From Thermoflexus hugenholtzii JAD2 (GTDB taxonomy: Bacteria > Chloroflexota > Anaerolineae > Thermoflexales > Thermoflexaceae): DNA of 64,000 bases. Made by a program: the position numbers and the translations under genes. This document shows positions 2,303-63,899 of this stretch, piece after piece. Numbering within the stretch: position 1 is the stretch's first letter; every line of letters starts with the position of its first letter. Below the pieces are notes generated by a model. That model saw only the letters and a program-made list of their open reading frames with translations, was not told where the DNA came from and made no database searches. The stretch is taken from positions 1 through 64,000 of the forward strand of contig NZ_FYEK01000054.1 of NCBI RefSeq assembly GCF_900187885.1, written 5' to 3'.

Positions 2303-3139
2303 ATGGGAATTAAGGTGTATAAACCGACGACGCCCGGTCGCCGGAACGCGACCGGATACACATTCGAGGAGATCACCAAGGACGAACCGGAGAAGTCCCT
2401 GGTCGTTCCCTTGAAGAAGCACGCCGGGCGCAACTTCCAGGGACGGATCACCGTCCGCCATCGGGGGGGCGGTCATAAGCGGCTCTACCGGATCATCGAC
2501 TTCAAGCGTCGGGACAAGGAGGGGATCCCGGCGAAGGTGATCAGCATCGAATATGATCCCAACCGCACCGCCCGGATCGCCCTCCTGCAATATGCGGACG
2601 GGGAGAAGCGCTACATCCTGGCTCCCCTGGGCCTGCAGGTGGGGGATGTGGTGATGAGCGGACCCCAGGCCGAGATCCGGGTGGGCAACGCCATGCCCCT
2701 GGCCAACATCCCGGTGGGAACGCTGGTGCACAACGTGGAGCTGTATCCGGGTCACGGCGGGCAGCTCGCCCGGGCCGCGGGGGCGGCGGCGCAGCTGCTG
2801 GGCAAAGAGGAAGGCTACGCCATCTTGCGCCTGCCCTCGGGGGAGATCCGGAAGGTCCGCCTGGAGTGCTACGCCACCATCGGCCAGGTGGGGAATCTGG
2901 AGCACGCGAACATCCGCCTGGGCAAGGCCGGCCGCAAGCGTTGGCTGGGCATCCGCCCCACCGTCCGTGGCTCCGCCATGTCCCCGCGGGATCATCCCCA
3001 CGGGGGCGGCGAGGGGCGGGCGCCCATCGGCCTGCCCTACCCGAAGACCCCATGGGGCAAGCATGCCCTGGGCAAGAAGACCCGGCGCAACAAGGCCACG
3101 GACAAGTACATCATCCAGCGCCGGCAGAAGAAGGCATAA
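2303..3139 (+). CDS. rplB: 50S ribosomal protein L2
   Basis: L2 is a primary rRNA-binding protein needed for subunit association and peptidyl transferase activity. The 278-residue length is standard. The N-terminus [19 protein letters not shown], the [12 protein letters not shown] region, the C-terminal [18 protein letters not shown] motif with its essential histidine, and the terminal RRQKKA are all recognisable. The Shine-Dalgarno site is weak. rpsS follows after 16 bases. Confidence 0.98.
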
Positions 3140-3155
3140 AGGGAGGTGATCGGCG

Positions 3156-3437
3156 ATGGGCCGTTCGCTGAAGAAGGGTCCCTATTGCGATCCGAAGCTT
3201 CTGAAGAAAATCGAGGAGCTCAACCGCCGGGGCGAGAAGCGGGTGATCCGCACCTGGTCGCGCGCCTCGGTGATCTTCCCCCAGATGGTCGGCCACACCA
3301 TCGCCGTTCACGACGGCCGGCGCCACGTGCCGATCTACATCACCGAACAGATGGTGGGCCACCGTCTGGGCGAGTTCGCCCCCACCCGGACCTACCGGGG
3401 GCATACGGTGAAGGAGAAGAAGACGGGGGTGCGGTAA
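3156..3437 (+). CDS. rpsS: 30S ribosomal protein S19
   Basis: S19 is a 30S head protein that contacts S13 and the A-site region. The 93-residue product begins [19 protein letters not shown] and contains [19 protein letters not shown] and the [10 protein letters not shown] motif, diagnostic of S19. A GGGAGGTGAT ribosome binding site precedes the ATG. It lies between rplB and rplV in canonical order. Confidence 0.98.
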
Positions 3438-3470
3438 GGCCCCGTGGGAGAACCTGGAGGGGGATGGACG

Positions 3471-3818
3471 ATGGCCAATCGGGTTCGGGCAGTTGCCCGC
3501 TACATTCGGATCTCGCCCTACAAGGCGCGCCTGGTCTGCAACCTGGTGAAGGGGATGCGGGCGGAGGAAGCCCTGGATGTGCTCCGCTTCACGCCCAAGA
3601 AGGCGGCGCGCTACGTGGCGAAGCTCATCCGCTCCGCCATGGCCAACGCGGAGAACAACTACGGTCTGTCGCCCGCGGACCTTTATGTGGTCGACATCCG
3701 GGCCGACGACGGACCACGCTACAAGCGGGTCCGCTTCGCCGCCCGCGGTCGGGTCCGCCCGATCCTCAAGCGGACGACGCACCTCACAGTGGTCCTGGAG
3801 GAGCGGGTGAGCGAATGA
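3471..3818 (+). CDS. rplV: 50S ribosomal protein L22
   Basis: L22 spans the large subunit and forms part of the exit tunnel constriction. The product of about 115 residues starts MANRVRAVARYIRISPYKARLV. It includes the NAENNYGLSPADLYV segment and the basic hairpin GPRYKRVRFAARGR, where macrolide-resistance changes occur in other bacteria. A GTG at 3444 is in frame, but the ATG at 3471 has a TGGAGGGGG site and matches family starts. Confidence 0.96.
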   Translation: MANRVRAVARYIRISPYKARLVCNLVKGMRAEEALDVLRFTPKKAARYVAKLIRSAMANAENNYGLSPADLYVVDIRADDGPRYKRVRFAARGRVRPILKRTTHLTVVLEERVSE

Positions 3819-3862
3819 ACTGGCTGCCGCAGGGGATCCGCTGAGATATAGAGGAGGTCATC

Positions 3863-4555
3863 TTGGGTCGAAAAGTTCATCCCATCGGCTTCCGTCTGGG
3901 GATCACCAAGAACTGGCTGGCCCGCTGGTATGCCGAGGGCCGGGAGTATGTGGAGCTGCTCCACGAGGATCTCAAGATCCGTCAGTTCGTGAAGGAGCAG
4001 CTCAAGGAGGCGGGGATCGCGCGCATTGAGATCGAGCGTTTCCCCAAGCAGATCAACCTCTACATCCACGCCGCCCGGCCCGGCATCGTCATCGGGCGCA
4101 AGGGCCTGGGGATCAAGCAGCTGCGCCAGGCCATTGAGGAGATGACCGGCAAGAAGGCGCGGGTGGAGATCGTGGAGGTCCCCCGGCCGGAGCTGGAGGC
4201 AGCCATCGTGGCGGAGAGCATCGCCCAGCAGATCGAGAAGCGGGTCAGCCACGCCCGGGCCATGAAGCGAGCGATCCAGCAGGCCATGCGCGCCGGGGCC
4301 AAAGGGATCCGGATCACGGTTTCCGGCCGGCTGGGCGGAGCGGAGATGGCCCGCACGGAGACCCTGATGGAGGGCCGGGTCCCCCGCCACACCCTGCGGG
4401 CGGACATCGATTATGCCCTGGCCGAGGCGATCACCAAATGGGGCAAGATCGGGATCAAGGTCTGGATCTACCGGGGCGACACCGAGCCGGGCGCTTACGT
4501 CCAGCAGACCGCGGAGATGGTCGCCCGGGTCACCTCGGCGCAACGGGGAGGATAA
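3863..4555 (+). CDS. rpsC: 30S ribosomal protein S3
   Basis: S3 lines the mRNA entry channel and has helicase-like activity. The 230-residue product reads (M)GRKVHPIGFRLGITKNW at its start, with a KH domain around residues 40-110 showing GIVIGRKGLGI and a C-terminal domain with GRLGGAEMARTE. The start is TTG, placed by a strong AGGAGGTCA site and by the family N-terminus. rplP begins three bases after the stop, suggesting coupling. Confidence 0.97.
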   Translation: MGRKVHPIGFRLGITKNWLARWYAEGREYVELLHEDLKIRQFVKEQLKEAGIARIEIERFPKQINLYIHAARPGIVIGRKGLGIKQLRQAIEEMTGKKARVEIVEVPRPELEAAIVAESIAQQIEKRVSHARAMKRAIQQAMRAGAKGIRITVSGRLGGAEMARTETLMEGRVPRHTLRADIDYALAEAITKWGKIGIKVWIYRGDTEPGAYVQQTAEMVARVTSAQRGG

Positions 4556-4558
4556 GCG

Positions 4559-4975
4559 ATGCTGATGCCCAAGCGCGTCAAATACCGCAAGCAGATGCGG
4601 GGGCGGATGAAGGGCAAGGAGACCCGCGGTGTGGAGCTGGCCTTCGGCGAATACGGGCTCCAGGCCCTGGAGCCATGCTGGCTGACCGCCCGCCAGATCG
4701 AGGCCGCCCGCCGCACCATCGTCCGCTTCCTGCGCCAGCGGGGCAAATACTGGATCCGGGTCTTCCCGGATAAGCCGGTGACCCGCAAGCCGGCCGAGAC
4801 CCGCATGGGCAAAGGGAAGGGGAACGTGGACCACTGGGTGGCCGTGGTGCGGCCGGGCCGCATCCTCTTCGAGATCGGCGGGGTGAGCGCCGATGTTGCC
4901 CATGAGGCCCTGCGGCAGGCCTCCTATAAGTTGCCCATCCGAACTCAGATCATCACGGCCGAGGAGCAGGTCTGA
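4559..4975 (+). CDS. rplP: 50S ribosomal protein L16
   Basis: L16 organises the A-site tRNA and is important for 50S maturation. The 138-residue product starts [19 protein letters not shown]. It includes the [19 protein letters not shown] region and the arginine-rich segment ending in [12 protein letters not shown], all typical. The GGAGGATAAGCG sequence at the end of rpsC supplies the ribosome binding site. Confidence 0.97.
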
Positions 4976-5013
4976 TTACCGGTTTTCAGATGCGATCACG
5001 CGGGGAGGACGCC

Positions 5014-5226
5014 GTGGCCCTTCGTCCGGAGGAAATCCGCAACTGGTCAGATGAAGAGATCCGCAACCGGCTGGAGCAGGCCCGCCGGGAGCTCTTCCAT
5101 CTGCGCCTGCAGTGGGCGATGAATCAGCTGAAGGATGTGAACCGTATCCGTGCTCTGCGCAAGGACATCGCTCGCATGCTCACCATCCTGCGGGAGCGGG
5201 AGCTGGCTCGGGGAGGTCGACGATGA
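5014..5226 (+). CDS. rpmC: 50S ribosomal protein L29
   Basis: L29 lies next to L23 at the exit tunnel. The product is about 70 residues and helical, reading (M)ALRPEEIRNWSDEEI, with the LFHLRLQWAMNQLKD and RIRALRKDIAR motifs of the family. An upstream ATG at 4990 is in frame, but the GTG at 5014 fits L29 N-termini and follows a GGGGAGGA site. Its TGA stop overlaps the ATG of rpsQ, indicating coupled translation. Confidence 0.93.
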   Translation: MALRPEEIRNWSDEEIRNRLEQARRELFHLRLQWAMNQLKDVNRIRALRKDIARMLTILRERELARGGRR

Positions 5227-5528
5227 AGGATCGTCGCAAGCGCTTTATCGGACGGGTGACCAGCGACAAGATGGATAAGACAGTGGTGGTGACGGTGGAG
5301 GAGCTGGTGCGCCACCCGCTGTATGGCAAGGTCATCCGCCGTCGCCGCAAGTTCATGGCTCACAACGAAGGGAACCTGGCCCGCATGGGCGACCTGGTCC
5401 AGATCGTGGAGTCCCGTCCCCTGAGCCGACGCAAACGCTGGGTGGTGGAGGCGATCCTGGAGCGGGCCCAGAAGCCGGTGGAGCCGGTGCCGGAGCAGCT
5501 GCCCGGCGAAGAGATCCTGTCGGAGTAG
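5223..5528 (+). CDS. rpsQ: 30S ribosomal protein S17
   Basis: S17 is an early 16S rRNA-binding OB-fold protein. The product of about 101 residues starts [23 protein letters not shown] and contains [19 protein letters not shown] and the [11 protein letters not shown] motif. The open frame runs far upstream, but the ATG at 5223 overlaps the rpmC stop and matches the family. A C-terminal extension of roughly 20 residues rich in Pro and Glu is not part of the usual core. Confidence 0.96.
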
Positions 5529-5541
5529 CCGGAGGTCATCC

Positions 5542-5910
5542 ATGATCCAGCAGGAGACCCGCCTCAAGGTCGCAGACAACACCGGCGCCCGGGAGATCCT
5601 GGTCATCCGGGTGCTGGGAGGATCCTATCGCCGCTACGGGTATGTGGGGGATGTGGTGGTGGCCACGGTGAAAGACGCCATCCCGACGGCCACCGTGAAG
5701 AAAGGCGAGATCGTGCGCGCCGTGATCGTCCGGACAGCTAAGGAATACCGGCGGCCGGATGGCTCCACCATCCGTTTCGACGACAACGCGGCGGTGATCT
5801 TGGACGAGTTCGGCAACCCGAAGGGGACGCGGATCTTCGGTCCGGTGGCCCGGGAGCTGCGCGACAAAGGCTTCACCAAGATCATCTCCCTGGCCCCGGA
5901 GGTGCTGTGA
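5542..5910 (+). CDS. rplN: 50S ribosomal protein L14
   Basis: L14 contributes to intersubunit bridges and is the docking site for RsfS. The 122-residue product starts [19 protein letters not shown] and shows [18 protein letters not shown] and the [18 protein letters not shown] motif, a perfect family fit in length and sequence. Its stop TGA overlaps a GTG that starts the inserted nucleotidyltransferase reading frame. Confidence 0.98.
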
Positions 5911-6247
5911 GCGCGAGAGGGAAAGCGGTGCGCCGGGGGATGCCGCCGGATCCCAATCTGGAGAAGCGGGTCGCGCTCCTGAAGCGCGATGGGCCGGAGC
6001 GGATTATCCTCTTCGGCTCCCGGGCGCGGGGGGAGGCGGATCCCTGGAGCGATCACGACATCATCGTCATCAAACGCACCGATCAGCCCTTCATGGAGCG
6101 GCTCCGGGAGATAGTACCCTATCTGGTCGAGTTCGAGCGGCCTGCCGAGATCCTTACACCCCCGAGGAGTTCGAGCGCATGCAGGAAACCGGCCTCGGGT
6201 GGATGGTGCGGGATGAAGGGGTGATTCTCTACGAAGCGGAATTCTGA
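5907..6247 (+). pseudogene. MNT-type nucleotidyltransferase inserted in the ribosomal operon, frameshifted
   Basis: This frame lies between rplN and rplX, where no gene is normally found. It begins with a GTG that overlaps the rplN stop (GTGA). It encodes a small DNA polymerase beta-like nucleotidyltransferase with an intact active-site motif, [16 protein letters not shown], which fits GS-x10-D-x-D. After codon 82 the frame shifts: one base appears to be missing near 6153-6155. The correct continuation, [13 protein letters not shown] to YEAEF, runs on in another frame and stops at 6245-6247. Read through, the protein would be about 113 residues, normal for MNT-type proteins, which often pair with HEPN toxins. 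No HEPN partner is seen. A sequencing error or programmed frameshift would restore a full protein. Confidence 0.8.
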
Positions 6248-6262
6248 GGGAGAAGAAGGCCT

Positions 6263-6583
6263 ATGGCTGCCAAGATCAAGCGAAAGGATCGGGTCCTGGT
6301 GATCGCCGGGGACGATCGGGGCGCTCAGGGGGAGGTCCTGCGGGTGCTCCGGAAGGAGAACCGGGTGGTGGTCGCCGGGGTCAACATCGTCAAGAAACAT
6401 CAGCGCCCCCGCCCCACCGGGCGCGGGCAGGTCGGCGGCATCATCGAATTCGAGGCGCCCATTCATATTTCAAATGTGATGCTGATCTGCCCTAAATGCA
6501 ATCGCCCCACCCGGGTGGGCTTTGTCGTGGAGGGGGGGCGCAAGCTGCGCCAGTGCAAGAAGTGTCAGGCTACCTTCGTGTGA
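6263..6583 (+). CDS. rplX: 50S ribosomal protein L24
   Basis: L24 starts 50S assembly and lies near the tunnel exit. The 106-residue product begins [20 protein letters not shown], a KOW motif, followed by [13 protein letters not shown] and [17 protein letters not shown]. The C-terminal part holds two CxxC pairs (CPKC and CKKC), suggesting a zinc ribbon as in many bacterial L24 proteins. The start is supported by a GGGAGAAGAAGG purine stretch. It is separated from rplN by the nucleotidyltransferase remnant. Confidence 0.97.
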
Positions 6584-6602
6584 AACCCGGGGAGGCAACA
6601 GG

Positions 6603-7169
6603 ATGGCGGAGGCGACGACCAAGGTGATCCCACGCCTGAAACAGCGATACCTGGAAGAGGTCCGCCCGGCCCTGATGCGGGAGTTCGGCTATCGCAACAT
6701 CATGGAGGTCCCGCGGGTCTGGAAGGTGGTGGTCAACGTCGGGGTGGGAGAGGCGGTGACCAACCCCAAAGCCCTGGATTATGCGGTGCAGAACATCGCC
6801 ACCATCACCGGCCAGAAGCCCCTGGTGACCAAGGCCCGCAAATCCATCGCCGCCTTCAAGTTGCGGGCCGGGCGCCCCATCGGGGTTAAGGTCACCCTGC
6901 GGGGGGACCGCATGTGGGCGTTCCTGGATCGGCTGTTCAACGTGGCCCTGCCTCGCATCCGGGACTTCCGAGGGGTCTCCCCGGATTCCTTCGACGGCCG
7001 GGGGAATTACACCCTGGGGCTGCGCGAGCAGCTGGTCTGGCCGGAGATCGACTACAGCCAGGTGGATAAAGTCCGGGGGATGGAGATCACCATTGTGACC
7101 ACAGCGAAGACCGACGCCGAGGCGCGGCGGCTGCTGGAGCTGCTCGGCATGCCGTTCCGCAAAGGATAG
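6603..7169 (+). CDS. rplE: 50S ribosomal protein L5
   Basis: L5 binds 5S rRNA and contacts P-site tRNA. The product of 188 residues contains [20 protein letters not shown], the [19 protein letters not shown] motif and the [18 protein letters not shown] segment of the family. The ATG at 6603 follows a GGGGAGGCAAC site. The open frame starts upstream inside rplX, but that part is not conserved. Confidence 0.97.
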
Positions 7170-7213
7170 GCGGTAAGAAGGAGGATTTCCACACCGGATG
7201 CCGGAGGGGATCT

Positions 7214-7396
7214 GTGGCCCGGAAATGCATGATTTATCGTGAGATGCGTCGGAAATATAAGGTGCGGGTGCGGAACCGGTGCCGCCGGTGCGGCCGGCCC
7301 CGGGCCTACATCCGCCGCTTCGCCCTGTGCCGGATCTGCTTCCGGGAGCTGGCCCTCCAGGGGCTGATCCCAGGCGTCCGCAAGGCCAGCTGGTGA
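7214..7396 (+). CDS. rpsN: 30S ribosomal protein S14, zinc-binding (type Z)
   Basis: S14 is a late-assembling 30S head protein. This is the short 60-residue form with two CxxC pairs (CRRC and CRIC) about 12 residues apart that bind zinc, and the C-terminal [15 protein letters not shown] typical of type Z. The start is GTG, preceded by GGAGGGGA. The residues after the start read [17 protein letters not shown]. This form is the ancestral one and common in thermophiles. Confidence 0.96.
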
Positions 7397-7473
7397 GCGC
7401 GCCCATGTCTCAACCCGGCGCAGGGAAGGCCCTCCCAGGTCTGACAGGGAACATTCGGATAGGAGTGAAACCG

Positions 7474-7884
7474 ATGAGCGCGGTGACGGATCCGATTGCT
7501 GACATGCTCACCCGAATCCGGAACGCCTCGATGGTGGGGCACAGCCGGGTGGCCATCCCCAGCTCCAAGCTGAAGGTGGCCATCGCCCGGGTGTTGAAGG
7601 AGGAGGGCTACATCGAGGACTTCCAGGTGACGAACGATCGGCCTCAGCCGAAGCTGATCATCAAGCTGAAATACATCGGCGAGCGGCGCTTCCGCAAGCC
7701 GGCCATCTCGGGGTTGCAGCGGGTGAGCAAGCCGGGCCGTCGGGTGTATGTGGGCAAGGAGGATATCCCGCTGGTGATGAGCGGGATGGGCATCGCCATC
7801 CTCTCCACCCCGAAAGGGGTGATGACCGATAAACAGGCCCGCCGCCTGGGGGTCGGCGGCGAGGTCCTCTGCTACGTCTGGTGA
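7474..7884 (+). CDS. rpsH: 30S ribosomal protein S8
   Basis: S8 binds 16S rRNA helix 21 and regulates spc operons in enterobacteria. The 136-residue product starts [23 protein letters not shown] and ends with [26 protein letters not shown], both diagnostic. The frame is open upstream through rpsN, but the ATG at 7474 has a TAGGAGTGAAA site and fits the family. A 77-nt spacer separates it from rpsN. Confidence 0.97.
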
Positions 7885-7895
7885 GGGAGGAAGCC

Positions 7896-8465
7896 GTGTC
7901 GCGCGTAGGCAAGAAGCCGATCCCGATCCCGCCGGGGGTCCAGGTCCGGATCGAGGGCTCGACGGTGACCGTCACCGGGCCGAAGGGGACCCTCACTCAG
8001 ACCTTCCATCCGTCGATGCAGATCTCCATCGAGGACGGCCATCTGGTGGTGCGACGCCCTTCGGACGACCGCAAGCACAAGGCCCTGCATGGCTTGACCC
8101 GGGCCCTGCTGGCGAACATGGTCACCGGCGTCACTCAGGGTTTTCAGCAGCACCTGCGCATCGAAGGGGTGGGTTACCGGGCTGAGCCCATGGGCAAGGC
8201 CATCGTGCTCTATCTGGGATACTCCCACCCCATCATTGTGGAGCCGCCGGAGGGGATCACCTTCGAGGTGAACACCCGCGATCGCATCATCACCGTCTCC
8301 GGAATCGATAAGCAGCAGGTGGGCCAGGTGGCCGCCAAGATCCGGGCCCTGCGTCCGCCCGAGCCCTACAAGGGCAAGGGGATCCGCTACACATACTGGA
8401 AGGGCGATCACTGGGAGGACGAGCCGATCCGGCGCAAGGCCGGGAAGGCCGGCAAGGCCAAGTGA
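7896..8465 (+). CDS. rplF: 50S ribosomal protein L6
   Basis: L6 lies near the factor-binding site of the 50S subunit. The product of about 189 residues reads (M)SRVGKKPIPIPPGVQV, then FQQHLRIEGVGYRAEPMGK, and ends in the signature PEPYKGKGIRYTYW. Two GTG codons are possible. The one at 7896 is preferred because the GAGGGAGGA site at 7883-7891 precedes it and family members begin with SRVGKKPI. The other, at 7881, overlaps the rpsH stop. Confidence 0.96.
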   Translation: MSRVGKKPIPIPPGVQVRIEGSTVTVTGPKGTLTQTFHPSMQISIEDGHLVVRRPSDDRKHKALHGLTRALLANMVTGVTQGFQQHLRIEGVGYRAEPMGKAIVLYLGYSHPIIVEPPEGITFEVNTRDRIITVSGIDKQQVGQVAAKIRALRPPEPYKGKGIRYTYWKGDHWEDEPIRRKAGKAGKAK

Positions 8466-20380: not shown

Positions 20381-21196
20381 ATGAGCCCATCGGGCGCCCA
20401 TCTGGAGGTCTGGCTGCTGACGGCGATCGAGGCCGCCCTGGCCGGAGGGGCGGTCCTCCGCGCCCACTGGCCGATGCCGCGCCAGGTGCACGAGAAAGGG
20501 TTCCGGGATTGGGTGACCGCAGCAGACCTGGCCGCTCAGGAGGCCGTCGTGGCGGTGATCCGGCGCCATGATCCCGCCCATCGTGTGCTGGGGGAAGAGG
20601 GCACGTCCCAGGAGGAAGCGCGGGAGGCGATGGCTCAGGGCATCGTCTGGGTGGTGGATCCTCTGGATGGGACAACGAACTTCGCCCGGCGCCTGCCGTA
20701 TTTCGCCGTCTCCGTCGGCCTGCTGGTGGAAGGGGAGCCGGTGGTCGGGGTGATCTACGCGCCTCTCCAGGATATGTTGTTCACAGCCGCCCGGGGCCGG
20801 GGCGCTTTCCTGAACGGCAGGCCCATCCGGGTCAGCGAGACGGAGCGCCTGGAGCAGGCGTTGATCGGGCTGGACTGGGGGCATCGCAACGAGACGCGGG
20901 AGCAGGTCCTGGCTTGGCTGAGCTCCCTGGCGGTGCGTTGCCAGACCGTGCGGGCCATCGGATCCGCCGCCATGGGGATGGCCTATGTGGCCGCGGGCTG
21001 GCTGGATCTGTATTTCCACTTGGCGCTGCAGCCATGGGACGTGGCCGCCGCCGCCGTGCTGGTCCGCGAGGCGGGAGGACAGATGAATCGCCCGGATGGC
21101 TCTCCCTGGACGTTCCGGGATGCGGAGGCGGTGGTGAGCAACGGTCGGCTGGATCGAGTGGTGTGGGCCCTGCTCGGGGAATCCTCCGGCCGCTGA
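20381..21196 (+). CDS. Inositol monophosphatase family protein
   Basis: This Mg-dependent phosphatase family acts on inositol phosphate, fructose bisphosphate or similar sugars. The 271-residue product shows the metal-binding GEEGTSQE (residues 71-78), the VVDPLDGTTNFARRLPYFAVS motif (about 91-110) and the C-terminal PWDVAAAAVLVREAGG. It follows the binding protein by 13 bases and probably shares its transcript. The exact substrate cannot be decided. Confidence 0.9.
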   Translation: MSPSGAHLEVWLLTAIEAALAGGAVLRAHWPMPRQVHEKGFRDWVTAADLAAQEAVVAVIRRHDPAHRVLGEEGTSQEEAREAMAQGIVWVVDPLDGTTNFARRLPYFAVSVGLLVEGEPVVGVIYAPLQDMLFTAARGRGAFLNGRPIRVSETERLEQALIGLDWGHRNETREQVLAWLSSLAVRCQTVRAIGSAAMGMAYVAAGWLDLYFHLALQPWDVAAAAVLVREAGGQMNRPDGSPWTFRDAEAVVSNGRLDRVVWALLGESSGR

Positions 21197-21251
21197 GATC
21201 GGTGCGCCGCGCTCGAGGCTCCGCATCCGCGATTTCCCGCTAAACCCGGAT

Positions 21252-21279
21252 TTGACAAGAGGGGGAAATCTGGTAGAAT
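21252..21279 (+). promoter_or_regulatory. Promoter for the cold-shock gene leader
   Basis: A perfect -35 TTGACA (21252-21257) and a -10 TAGAAT (21274-21279) are separated by 16 bases, with a TGG extended -10 just upstream of TAGAAT. Transcription would begin near 21286, giving a leader of about 190 nt before cspA. Confidence 0.8.
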
Positions 21280-21324
21280 GAAGGCGCGTGAGGAGCACAC
21301 GCGGAAGGGAAGTCGAAGGCCAGA

Positions 21325-21358
21325 CCGCCGGGTCGCCCGAGACGCCCGGCGGTTTTTT
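21325..21358 (+). terminator. Terminator-like hairpin in the cspA leader
   Basis: CCGCCGGG (21325-21332) and CCCGGCGG (21345-21352) form an 8-bp GC stem with a 12-nt loop, followed immediately by TTTTTT. It lies about 40 nt after the predicted start site and 115 nt before cspA, so it would either attenuate cspA or end a small RNA of about 70 nt. Confidence 0.75.
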
Positions 21359-21472
21359 GTTGACCCGGAGATCGGCCCCTGGCCCATCCCCACGGTCCGT
21401 CCTCGAGCCCTTCCAGAACAACGGAAGCCTGGGCTCCGGCTTCGTCCTAACTTTACGTAAGGAGTTCTTCCG

Positions 21473-21694
21473 ATGTCTGAAGCACGCATGAAGGGAACCG
21501 TCCGCTGGTTCAACCGGATCAAGGGGTATGGCTTCATCCGCCCCGATCAGGGAGAGAAGGACATCTTCGTCCACTACTCCGGGATCGCCGGGGATGGCTT
21601 CCGGAACCTCGAGGAGGGGGACCGGGTGGAGTTCAGCGTCCGGCAGACCGCCAAGGGCCCCCAGGCCTACGACGTGACCCGCCTCTCCGCCTGA
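21473..21694 (+). CDS. Cold-shock protein, CspA family
   Basis: A 73-residue single-stranded nucleic-acid-binding OB-fold protein. RNP1 (KGYGFIRP) and RNP2 (DIFVHYS) are intact, as is the VEFSVRQTAKGPQAYDV C-terminal strand. The ATG at 21473 has an AAGGAG site at 21459. A second ATG five codons later is possible. It is preceded by a long structured leader with a terminator-like hairpin, and a small hairpin (21424-21443) lies near the ribosome binding site. Confidence 0.95.
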   Translation: MSEARMKGTVRWFNRIKGYGFIRPDQGEKDIFVHYSGIAGDGFRNLEEGDRVEFSVRQTAKGPQAYDVTRLSA

Positions 21695-21718
21695 TCTCTT
21701 GAACCGGGCATCCGGTCG

Positions 21719-21754
21719 CGACGGCCCTGCCGAAAGGTGGGGCCGTCGTTTTTT
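21719..21754 (+). terminator. Intrinsic terminator after the cold-shock gene
   Basis: CGACGGCC (21719-21726) pairs with GGCCGTCG (21741-21748), and TTTTTT follows at 21749-21754. It is a textbook rho-independent terminator 25 nt after the cspA stop. Confidence 0.9.
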
Positions 21755-24391: not shown

Positions 24392-24420
24392 TTGACAGGA
24401 TCCGTTCTCCCCCCTATAAT
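24392..24420 (+). promoter_or_regulatory. Consensus promoter of the paaR-paaABCD unit
   Basis: TTGACA (24392-24397) and TATAAT (24415-24420) are separated by exactly 17 bases, a perfect housekeeping sigma promoter. Transcription should start near 24427, inside the operator, giving only about 18 nt of leader before the regulator's ATG. Confidence 0.92.
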
Positions 24421-24444: not shown

Positions 24445-25053
24445 ATGGCGCGAGGAAGCGGGGGCGATCGACGCAGGGCGATCTTACGGGTGGCCGGGCG
24501 GCTCTTCAGCCAGCGCGGCTACTACGGGACGTCCATCCGGGACATCGCGGCGGCGATCCGCCTGCAGGGAGGGAGCCTCTATGCGCACATCGCCTCCAAG
24601 GAGGAGCTGCTCTGGGAGATCGTGGACGAGGCGGCGCAGGCCTTCCTCTCCAGCCTGGAGCCCATCGTCCGCTCGGAGCGGCCTCCTCTGGAGAAGCTGC
24701 GCATGGCGGTGGCCGCCCACATCCGGGTGGTGACGGAGCGTCAGGATGCGGCGGTGGTCTTCAACCACGAATGGCGGGCGCTGAGCCCGAAACGCCGGAG
24801 CGAGATCCTCGCCCGCCGGGACGCCTATGAGGCGCTCTTCCGGGAGATCCTGCGGGAGGGGATCGCGGCCGGCGTCTTCCGGGCAGACCTGGATGTCCCG
24901 CTGATCACCCGCTTCATCCTGACCGCCTTGAACGGGGTGGCCGTCTGGTATCAACCCAAAGGCCCGCTCTCGCCGGACCAGATCGCGGAGGCTTTCAGCG
25001 AGTGGGCGGTGCGAGGGCTGGTTCGCTCGGAATCCCCGTCTGCGGATCCGTGA
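24445..25053 (+). CDS. paaR: TetR-family repressor, probable PaaR
   Basis: The 202-residue protein has a TetR helix-turn-helix at about residues 10-55, with RLFSQRGYYGTSIRDIAAAI and GGSLYAHIASKEELLWEI. The C-terminal ligand domain contains VVFNHEWRALSPKRRSEI. It is first in an operon with paaABCD and has a PaaR-type operator over its own promoter, so control of phenylacetate breakdown by phenylacetyl-CoA is likely. The start has essentially no Shine-Dalgarno sequence and a very short leader. Confidence 0.85.
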   Translation: MARGSGGDRRRAILRVAGRLFSQRGYYGTSIRDIAAAIRLQGGSLYAHIASKEELLWEIVDEAAQAFLSSLEPIVRSERPPLEKLRMAVAAHIRVVTERQDAAVVFNHEWRALSPKRRSEILARRDAYEALFREILREGIAAGVFRADLDVPLITRFILTALNGVAVWYQPKGPLSPDQIAEAFSEWAVRGLVRSESPSADP

Positions 25054-63870: not shown

Positions 63871-63899
63871 TTGACAATGACCGATTGTGTTTCTATCAT
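63871..63899 (+). promoter_or_regulatory. Promoter reading out of the window
   Basis: TTGACA (63871-63876) and TATCAT (63894-63899) with a 17-base spacer make a good promoter. It would drive the gene starting at 63990 with a leader of about 85 nt. Confidence 0.7.

Follow-up and report, generated by a model that had tools for sequence, protein, structure and literature searches.

A probable transcription attenuator in the cold-shock gene leader of Thermoflexus, with a promoter-terminator arrangement shared by much of Anaerolineae

Bacterial attenuators such as riboswitches, T-boxes, and trp attenuators place mutually exclusive pairings upstream of a U-tract, between a promoter and the gene under control. 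The csp mRNAs of Escherichia coli carry a different element, the cold box, a short conserved sequence near +1 that has been proposed to act in transcription control. To our knowledge, no intrinsic terminator has been described with the cold box, and our library search for literature on this element in csp mRNAs found no paper. An intrinsic attenuator in the csp leaders of Chloroflexota was likewise not found in the open literature, a search that left subscription papers mostly outside, and no Thermoflexus transcriptome was found there by title. The nearest published case that we found is Rho-dependent premature termination in the 5' UTR or the open reading frame of E. coli cspB and cspG (PMC7815308). 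Cold-shock proteins have themselves been linked to intrinsic termination. One report describes CspD as reducing intrinsic termination in vivo in E. coli and cites work with the same result for CspA, CspC, and CspE; it saw no marked effect of CspB, CspF, or CspH, and a mode of action for CspA and CspC that differed from that of CspD (PMC9765468). A 2019 study reportedly did not find Csp antitermination at infB (PMC6511841), and a paper on Csp target specificity uses as its targets a leader uORF, an sRNA, and a riboswitch (PMC11648934).

The locus described here lies in a 64-kb stretch of DNA (hereafter the window), part of the 3.2-Mb genome of a member of the genus Thermoflexus (Chloroflexota, Anaerolineae). 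The promoter, leader elements, csp gene, and terminators described for this locus are on the forward strand. A csp gene of 73 aa with a cold-shock domain (PF00313, E 5e-29) occupies positions 21473-21694. It is preceded by a co-directional gene of the inositol monophosphatase family (20381-21196), is followed by a terminator (21718-21749; 14 pairs, -29 kcal/mol, T-run), and has a gene for a MoeA protein with a PBP-like domain as its 3' neighbour. The initial annotation had described a strong promoter followed about 40 nt after its start site by an 8-bp GC hairpin with six Ts, and this description was confirmed. The promoter is of the sigma-70 type (TTGACA-16-TAGAAT, 21252-21279), matches at 11 of 12 positions, and has a TG before the -10 box, which would place +1 at about 21286. 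It is the only promoter-like site found between 20900 and 21900 and one of three with at least 11 of 12 matches in the whole window. The two others, also on the forward strand with 11 or 12 of 12 matches, lie at 24392-24420, ahead of an ORF at 24445 that we named TetR-like by eye, and at 63871-63899.

The terminator hairpin and its U6 tract span 21322-21358. Its 8-bp GC core (CCGCCGGG/CCCGGCGG, 21325-21332/21345-21352) begins about 39 nt past the predicted +1, the hairpin as a whole lies 42 nt from the -10 box, and the T6 tract (21353-21358) directly follows the core. The extended stem of 12 pairs (21322-21355) reaches -22.2 kcal/mol, the second rank among the window's 13 terminator-like sites; a first terminator scan, with a loop limit of 8, did not list it. 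When 21201-21472 was shuffled 2000 times with dinucleotides preserved, any terminator arose in 139 shuffles and one of -22.2 kcal/mol in two. Another 114 nt separate the T6 tract from the ATG at 21473, in line with the roughly 115 nt noted earlier. The small hairpin reported near the ribosome binding site is also present: GAAGCC-N8-GGCTTC at 21424-21443, 29 nt upstream of the ATG, with the Shine-Dalgarno sequence AAGGAG at 21459-21464. The initial annotation had named a separate promoter between 21360 and 21470 as evidence that would count against its proposal; none was found at 7 or more of 12 matches within 21360-21472. An intrinsic terminator thus stands downstream of the promoter and upstream of the gene, which by sequence is the placement of an attenuator.

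Three further features lie in the early leader. A 5' hairpin (GCGTG-N7-CACGC, 21286-21302) was found in prefix folds and by comparison within Thermoflexus. The segment AGTCGAAGG (21311-21319) lies at about the position of the AGUUCUG segment of the class motif described below, as placed by prefix folds and by an alignment with the second csp copy of the genome whose register is uncertain. It is a weak antiterminator candidate, and the window copy performs no better than shuffles. A small alternative hairpin (GACC-GCCG-GGTC, 21323-21334), seen in prefix and alternative folds of both csp copies, would sequester part of the terminator 5' arm. Folding z-scores for the whole leader are ordinary (-1.1 and -1.3). 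Overall stability is therefore unremarkable, and the signal consists of the hairpin, the U-tract, and their conservation.

Comparison of the leaders of csp homologues, which the initial annotation had suggested, was carried out on 112 distinct csp leaders from 37 families, drawn from 60 relatives, with csp hits below 60 bits, leaders shorter than 150 nt, and near-identical leaders left out. A terminator-like hairpin 20-220 nt before the ATG was present on the sense strand in 73 of the 112 and on the antisense strand in 7, and 30 of the 37 families had at least one terminator-bearing leader. An earlier, overlapping mixed set, also of 112 leaders, gave 57 sense and 7 antisense occurrences, with 9 in 336 shuffled sequences. 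A promoter of at least 9/12 lay upstream of the hairpin in 64 of the 73 positive leaders and downstream in 3, and 6 had none; the terminator is hence downstream of the promoter in 64 of 67. Promoters between terminator and ATG occurred in 2 of 73. Measured from the -10 box, the stem lies at a median of 46 nt (middle half 43-49, range 34-154), and the hairpin stands a median of 71 nt before the ATG. By these criteria 39 of the 112 leaders had no terminator, several of them with a strong hairpin and a poorer T-run.

The order of promoter, 30-65 nt, and terminator was found in 59 of the 112 csp leaders versus 1 of 98 non-csp genes at the same loci (79 of 184 csp leaders with named records added); any terminator at all preceded 13 of the 98 controls. 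The sole positive control is a gene for an FKBP-type isomerase (PF00254) that directly precedes csp and has the csp leader motif. One such FKBP gene, at L071 1388-1861 (the contig of G012:C464), has the csp leader motif, promoter, and terminator before it. Since the element can stand before an FKBP gene that precedes csp, it may control an FKBP-csp unit. The survey count leaves out two places (G054:C594 and G014:C51) as well as lower-scoring CSD proteins; the two places, when looked at later, had motif, promoter, and terminator. In other Anaerolineae genomes searched later, all 8 csp loci (7 new places and 1 already in the set) had a terminator 65-71 nt from the ATG, one of them without a 9/12 promoter. 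Outside the class, the full design appeared at 1 of 21 loci (L239, a closer csp), while 2 of 20 weaker CSD matches had a terminator without a promoter. Records titled as other phyla gave 0 of 15 leaders with the full order, in a list that omits L062, L074, and L082, whose titles name other phyla and whose binning is doubted; L062 has a terminator. Judged by these comparisons, the leader terminator is real, conserved, and tied to csp genes.

Within Thermoflexus, the element can be followed at higher resolution. The window genome carries two close csp genes, A in the window and B elsewhere (G000:C32), whose proteins are 69% identical, as well as a more distant CSD match; the window Csp is 95-96% identical to its same-genus counterparts. 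The B copy has the same promoter-terminator design, and A and B leaders from nine genomes can be aligned from the start site to the U-tract. Every A and B copy has a promoter of the TTGACA type at the corresponding position, apart from the A copy of G006 (L035, G006:C122:358-806). That copy looks decayed, with its promoter boxes lost and its start codon changed; its terminator hairpin still pairs, partly through G-U. Compared with the A copies of G001, G002, and G003, the window copy is 83-88% identical in the hairpin; the 5' leader reaches 77-85%, the part of the leader downstream of the hairpin 60-63%, and the sequence upstream of the -35 box 30-47%. Four B copies are 100% identical to the window genome's B in the hairpin and 28-38% identical in the leader that follows. 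The 9-bp terminator stem is 98.9% paired across 10 distinct A and B sequences, versus 26-54% when partners are shifted by 1-3 columns. Two pairs are compensated between A and B (A-U/G-C and C-G/U-A), a covariation that amounts to one A-to-B contrast, as cell counts represent non-independent events. The 5' leader hairpin shows one pair altered on both sides in G003 (GTGTG/CACAC) and an identical stem with a different loop in G001.

The hairpin near the ribosome binding site occurs in both A and B copies with differing stem lengths. Its GAAG...CTTC form lies 26-30 nt before the ATG in 12 of 13 Thermoflexus leaders, and the G006 A copy was unscored because its start codon is lost. Its role may lie in mRNA stability or in access of the ribosome. 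A covariance model built on the leader and run over the nine Thermoflexus genomes gave 14 strong hits (E<=2e-8; 7 A and 7 B), all of them csp leaders and most of them training sequences or duplicates. The ten training sequences match by construction, so what the search adds is that nothing apart from csp leaders comes near the strong hits among the 150 candidates scored per genome out of some 2,900-8,100 at first look. No other Thermoflexus gene bearing the element was found among the six weak hits inspected: two are antisense to B, one is a terminator without a promoter, and three have neither.

A sequence motif near +1 accompanies the terminator in much of the class. An EM search of 90 non-redundant leaders found tGTAGGAtGnAGtAAGTtc in 56, at a median of 6 nt past the -10 box, that is, at about +1, with a log-likelihood of 215 versus 60-66 in mono-shuffled sets. 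Across the 60 relatives, the pattern with up to 2 mismatches matched 32 times in 22 genomes, versus 15 times for its reversal. Every one of the 12 matches with 0-1 mismatch precedes csp or FKBP-csp. The 20 matches with 2 mismatches divide into 9 ahead of csp and 11 at other places; no promoter was found at the 10 places read of these 11. With up to 1 mismatch, 201 genomes of the phylum gave a single match, which had no promoter and no csp in its 3-kb locus. The same search found none in 24 other genomes of the class, mostly of family f27, whose motif is a variant. No Thermoflexus csp leader matched the strict motif at 2 mismatches. The motif there is degenerate: B copies retain AAGTTCTG, ATGTTCTG, or similar, and A copies retain only AAGTC or AAGTT. 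The window copy is a weak example of both motif and antiterminator. Attenuation through a leader peptide gained no support: the candidate frames (21278 and 21288) pass through the hairpin into the later leader, and several relatives have ATA in place of the ATG within the motif.

In motif-bearing leaders, the terminator's loop and inner 5' arm offer a pairing partner for the second half of the motif (for example GUAAG/CUUAC, CUG/CAG). In 15 of 50 leaders, chosen by a motif pattern for a test framed after the pattern had been seen, cognate pairing was better than lineage-swapped pairing by 1.9 kcal/mol (p=0.003; p=0.0008 with the whole 5' half). No swap effect was seen for the opening nine bases of the motif, for the stretch that follows it, or for either the outer 5' arm or the 3' arm of the hairpin (p 0.28-0.74). 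A broader swap test of 46 leaders was weaker and less specific, with p 0.0004-0.04 for the 5' half and 0.005-0.13 when the 3' half and loop were used; the 3' half, which shares the loop, was matched by the opening 25 nt as well (p=0.005). Generic pairing of leader to arm over all 83 leaders gained no support, being no better than in shuffles (mean z -0.14), and the window copy paired worse than its own shuffles (z +1.6). When the hairpin was kept and the upstream leader shuffled, real leaders on average competed somewhat more with the terminator than shuffles did (mean z -0.54, n=46); 5 of the 46 reached p<=0.05 singly, and the window copy was ordinary (p=0.44). These mixed swap, shuffle, and fold results make an antiterminator probable for part of the class and a weak candidate in the window copy; relatives with a clear motif appear to have an alternative pairing of the antiterminator type.

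Temperature was considered through predicted fold energies. In Thermoflexus at 37 C, about 6 kcal/mol at most separate the alternative fold from the terminator fold; the window copy prefers the terminator by 3.1 kcal/mol, and the corresponding values for ten other copies run from -1.5 to +6.3 kcal/mol. On warming from 37 to 70 C the balance shifts toward the terminator in 9 of 11 Thermoflexus copies, whereas two B copies show no such rise. For the A copies of G001-G003 the rise is unusual relative to shuffles (p 0.01-0.02), and the window balance barely moves, reaching 3.5 kcal/mol at 70 C (p=0.16). By these energies, lower temperature would tip some copies toward the alternative fold. Among 46 class leaders, the change with rising temperature is on average 1.3 kcal/mol more in the terminator's favour than in shuffles. 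Their median preference for the terminator falls from 6.2 kcal/mol at 37 C to 4.8 at 70 C. A simple equilibrium thermometer is therefore not predicted across the class, in which a temperature effect would have to be kinetic or act via Csp. Temperature dependence of the csp leader, raised as a possibility by the initial annotation, is accordingly putative: the modelled folds run in the anticipated direction in three orthologues of the window copy but hardly in the window copy itself.

Taken together, we consider it likely, at roughly two chances in three, that this leader controls the csp gene by transcription attenuation. The architecture, the association with csp, the conservation, the compensated stem changes, and, in relatives with a clear motif, the cognate pairing all support this reading at the level of sequence. 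Attenuation control as raised by the initial annotation thus gains good support, given that the promoter-terminator-csp order is strongly associated with csp and found in most of the families examined and that clear-motif relatives have an alternative pairing. What we infer beyond this is that transcripts terminate here in vivo, that readthrough is controlled, and which signal does so. RNA polymerase would start at the strong promoter at 21252-21279 and in many cases stop at the U-tract (21358), leaving RNAs of about 70-75 nt. Only readthrough would yield the csp mRNA, and Csp would probably be made only when RNA polymerase passes the terminator. In relatives, the conserved 5' segment of the AGUAAGUUCUG type may find its first partner in the loop and inner 5' arm of the terminator and, so paired, may act as an antiterminator. 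The equivalent pairing predicted for Thermoflexus B joins UUCUG with CAGGA, extending up to AGUUCUG with CAGGACU. Cold may favour the antiterminator through slower refolding or a shifted balance of the two folds; alternatively, the level of free Csp may tip that balance. Either way, readthrough would go up when Csp is needed. A broader proposal is that the nascent csp leader is a class-wide RNA switch that senses cold, directly or via the Csp level, by setting a 5'-motif antiterminator against an intrinsic terminator, with control at termination rather than translation. We put this forward tentatively.

One refinement falls within the attenuator reading itself. Csp could control its own gene by binding the nascent leader and altering termination, with temperature acting only through the Csp level; melting of the antiterminator would give negative feedback and melting of the terminator positive feedback. 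The association of the element with csp genes and the E. coli observations on CspD, with those cited for CspA, CspC, and CspE, speak for such autogenous control. The lack of marked effect for CspB, CspF, and CspH, the differing action of CspA and CspC, and the infB result speak against it, and its direction is not predictable from sequence. We regard it as possible, though somewhat doubtful.

Other explanations would give the hairpin a role apart from csp regulation, or none. It could mainly terminate the upstream inositol monophosphatase-family gene and merely happen to follow the csp promoter. That gene is co-directional, no other forward-strand terminator-like site was found between its stop codon and the csp promoter, and a gene judged similar by eye stands ahead of two B copies as well as three further A copies. 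However, the B-copy hairpin is present with either such a co-directional phosphatase-like gene or, in the window genome and G006, a divergent dnaX-like gene (by eye) upstream. Moreover, 6 of the 12 loci at which upstream genes were read as long ORFs have a divergent one; we rely on these 12, as a cruder orientation count (29 of 57 divergent) mis-called at least L036 and L037. A tight promoter spacing of 43-49 nt is also unexpected for an upstream gene's terminator, and this explanation is quite improbable. The terminated product of about 70-75 nt would in any case be a small RNA, as the initial annotation had envisaged, and a function of its own is putative. If that RNA were the functional product, csp would be expressed from constant leaky readthrough. 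The region from start site to hairpin is indeed better conserved than the later leader and ends in a strong terminator, but a free small RNA gene would be expected also away from csp, whereas the 12 motif matches with 0-1 mismatch in the 60 relatives and the 14 strong model hits are all tied to csp or FKBP-csp. We consider a small RNA gene unlikely. A functionless chance pairing of a GC-rich hairpin with a T-run gains a little from the 139 of 2000 shuffles that yielded some terminator. The strength of the window hairpin, reached in two, and a conservation and csp association far above controls weigh against it, and the comparative data rule it out for practical purposes.

If correct, the attenuator reading would define a csp control element that is shared by much of Anaerolineae (30 of 37 families examined) and that matches no Rfam family and no paper that our searches turned up. 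It would point to termination, beside translation, as a controlled step for cold-shock proteins in Anaerolineae, thermophiles included, and it provides exact bases for testing an RNA-based sensor of temperature or Csp. Membership in the cspA thermoregulator family (RF01766) was rejected for the window, which gave no match at the gathering score; a hit of 8.7 bits versus the required 78 fell on the post-csp terminator. No Rfam 15 riboswitch or leader family reached its gathering score in the window leader. Among 20 related loci compared with Rfam 15, only RF01766 matched, in four Anaerolineales loci (L058, L068, L085, and L097) and over stretches that include the csp coding region; the L085 leader alone gave nothing at E<=1. 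Such matches over coding sequence call for caution when thermosensors are annotated with this model.

Compared with riboswitches, T-boxes, and trp attenuators, the csp leader has no Rfam aptamer, T-box match, or convincing leader peptide, and the regulated gene is csp. The E. coli cold box and the csp leader motif are both conserved at the 5' end, but their sequences differ. The E. coli cspA thermoregulator (RF01766) is similar in having a long structured csp leader and control through RNA structure; it differs in that its mRNA refolding reportedly acts on translation (PMC3738593, PMC7724050). The premature termination predicted for the leaders described here has a counterpart in the E. coli cspB and cspG genes, yet theirs is Rho-dependent (PMC7815308), whereas the Anaerolineae leaders carry an intrinsic hairpin and U-tract.
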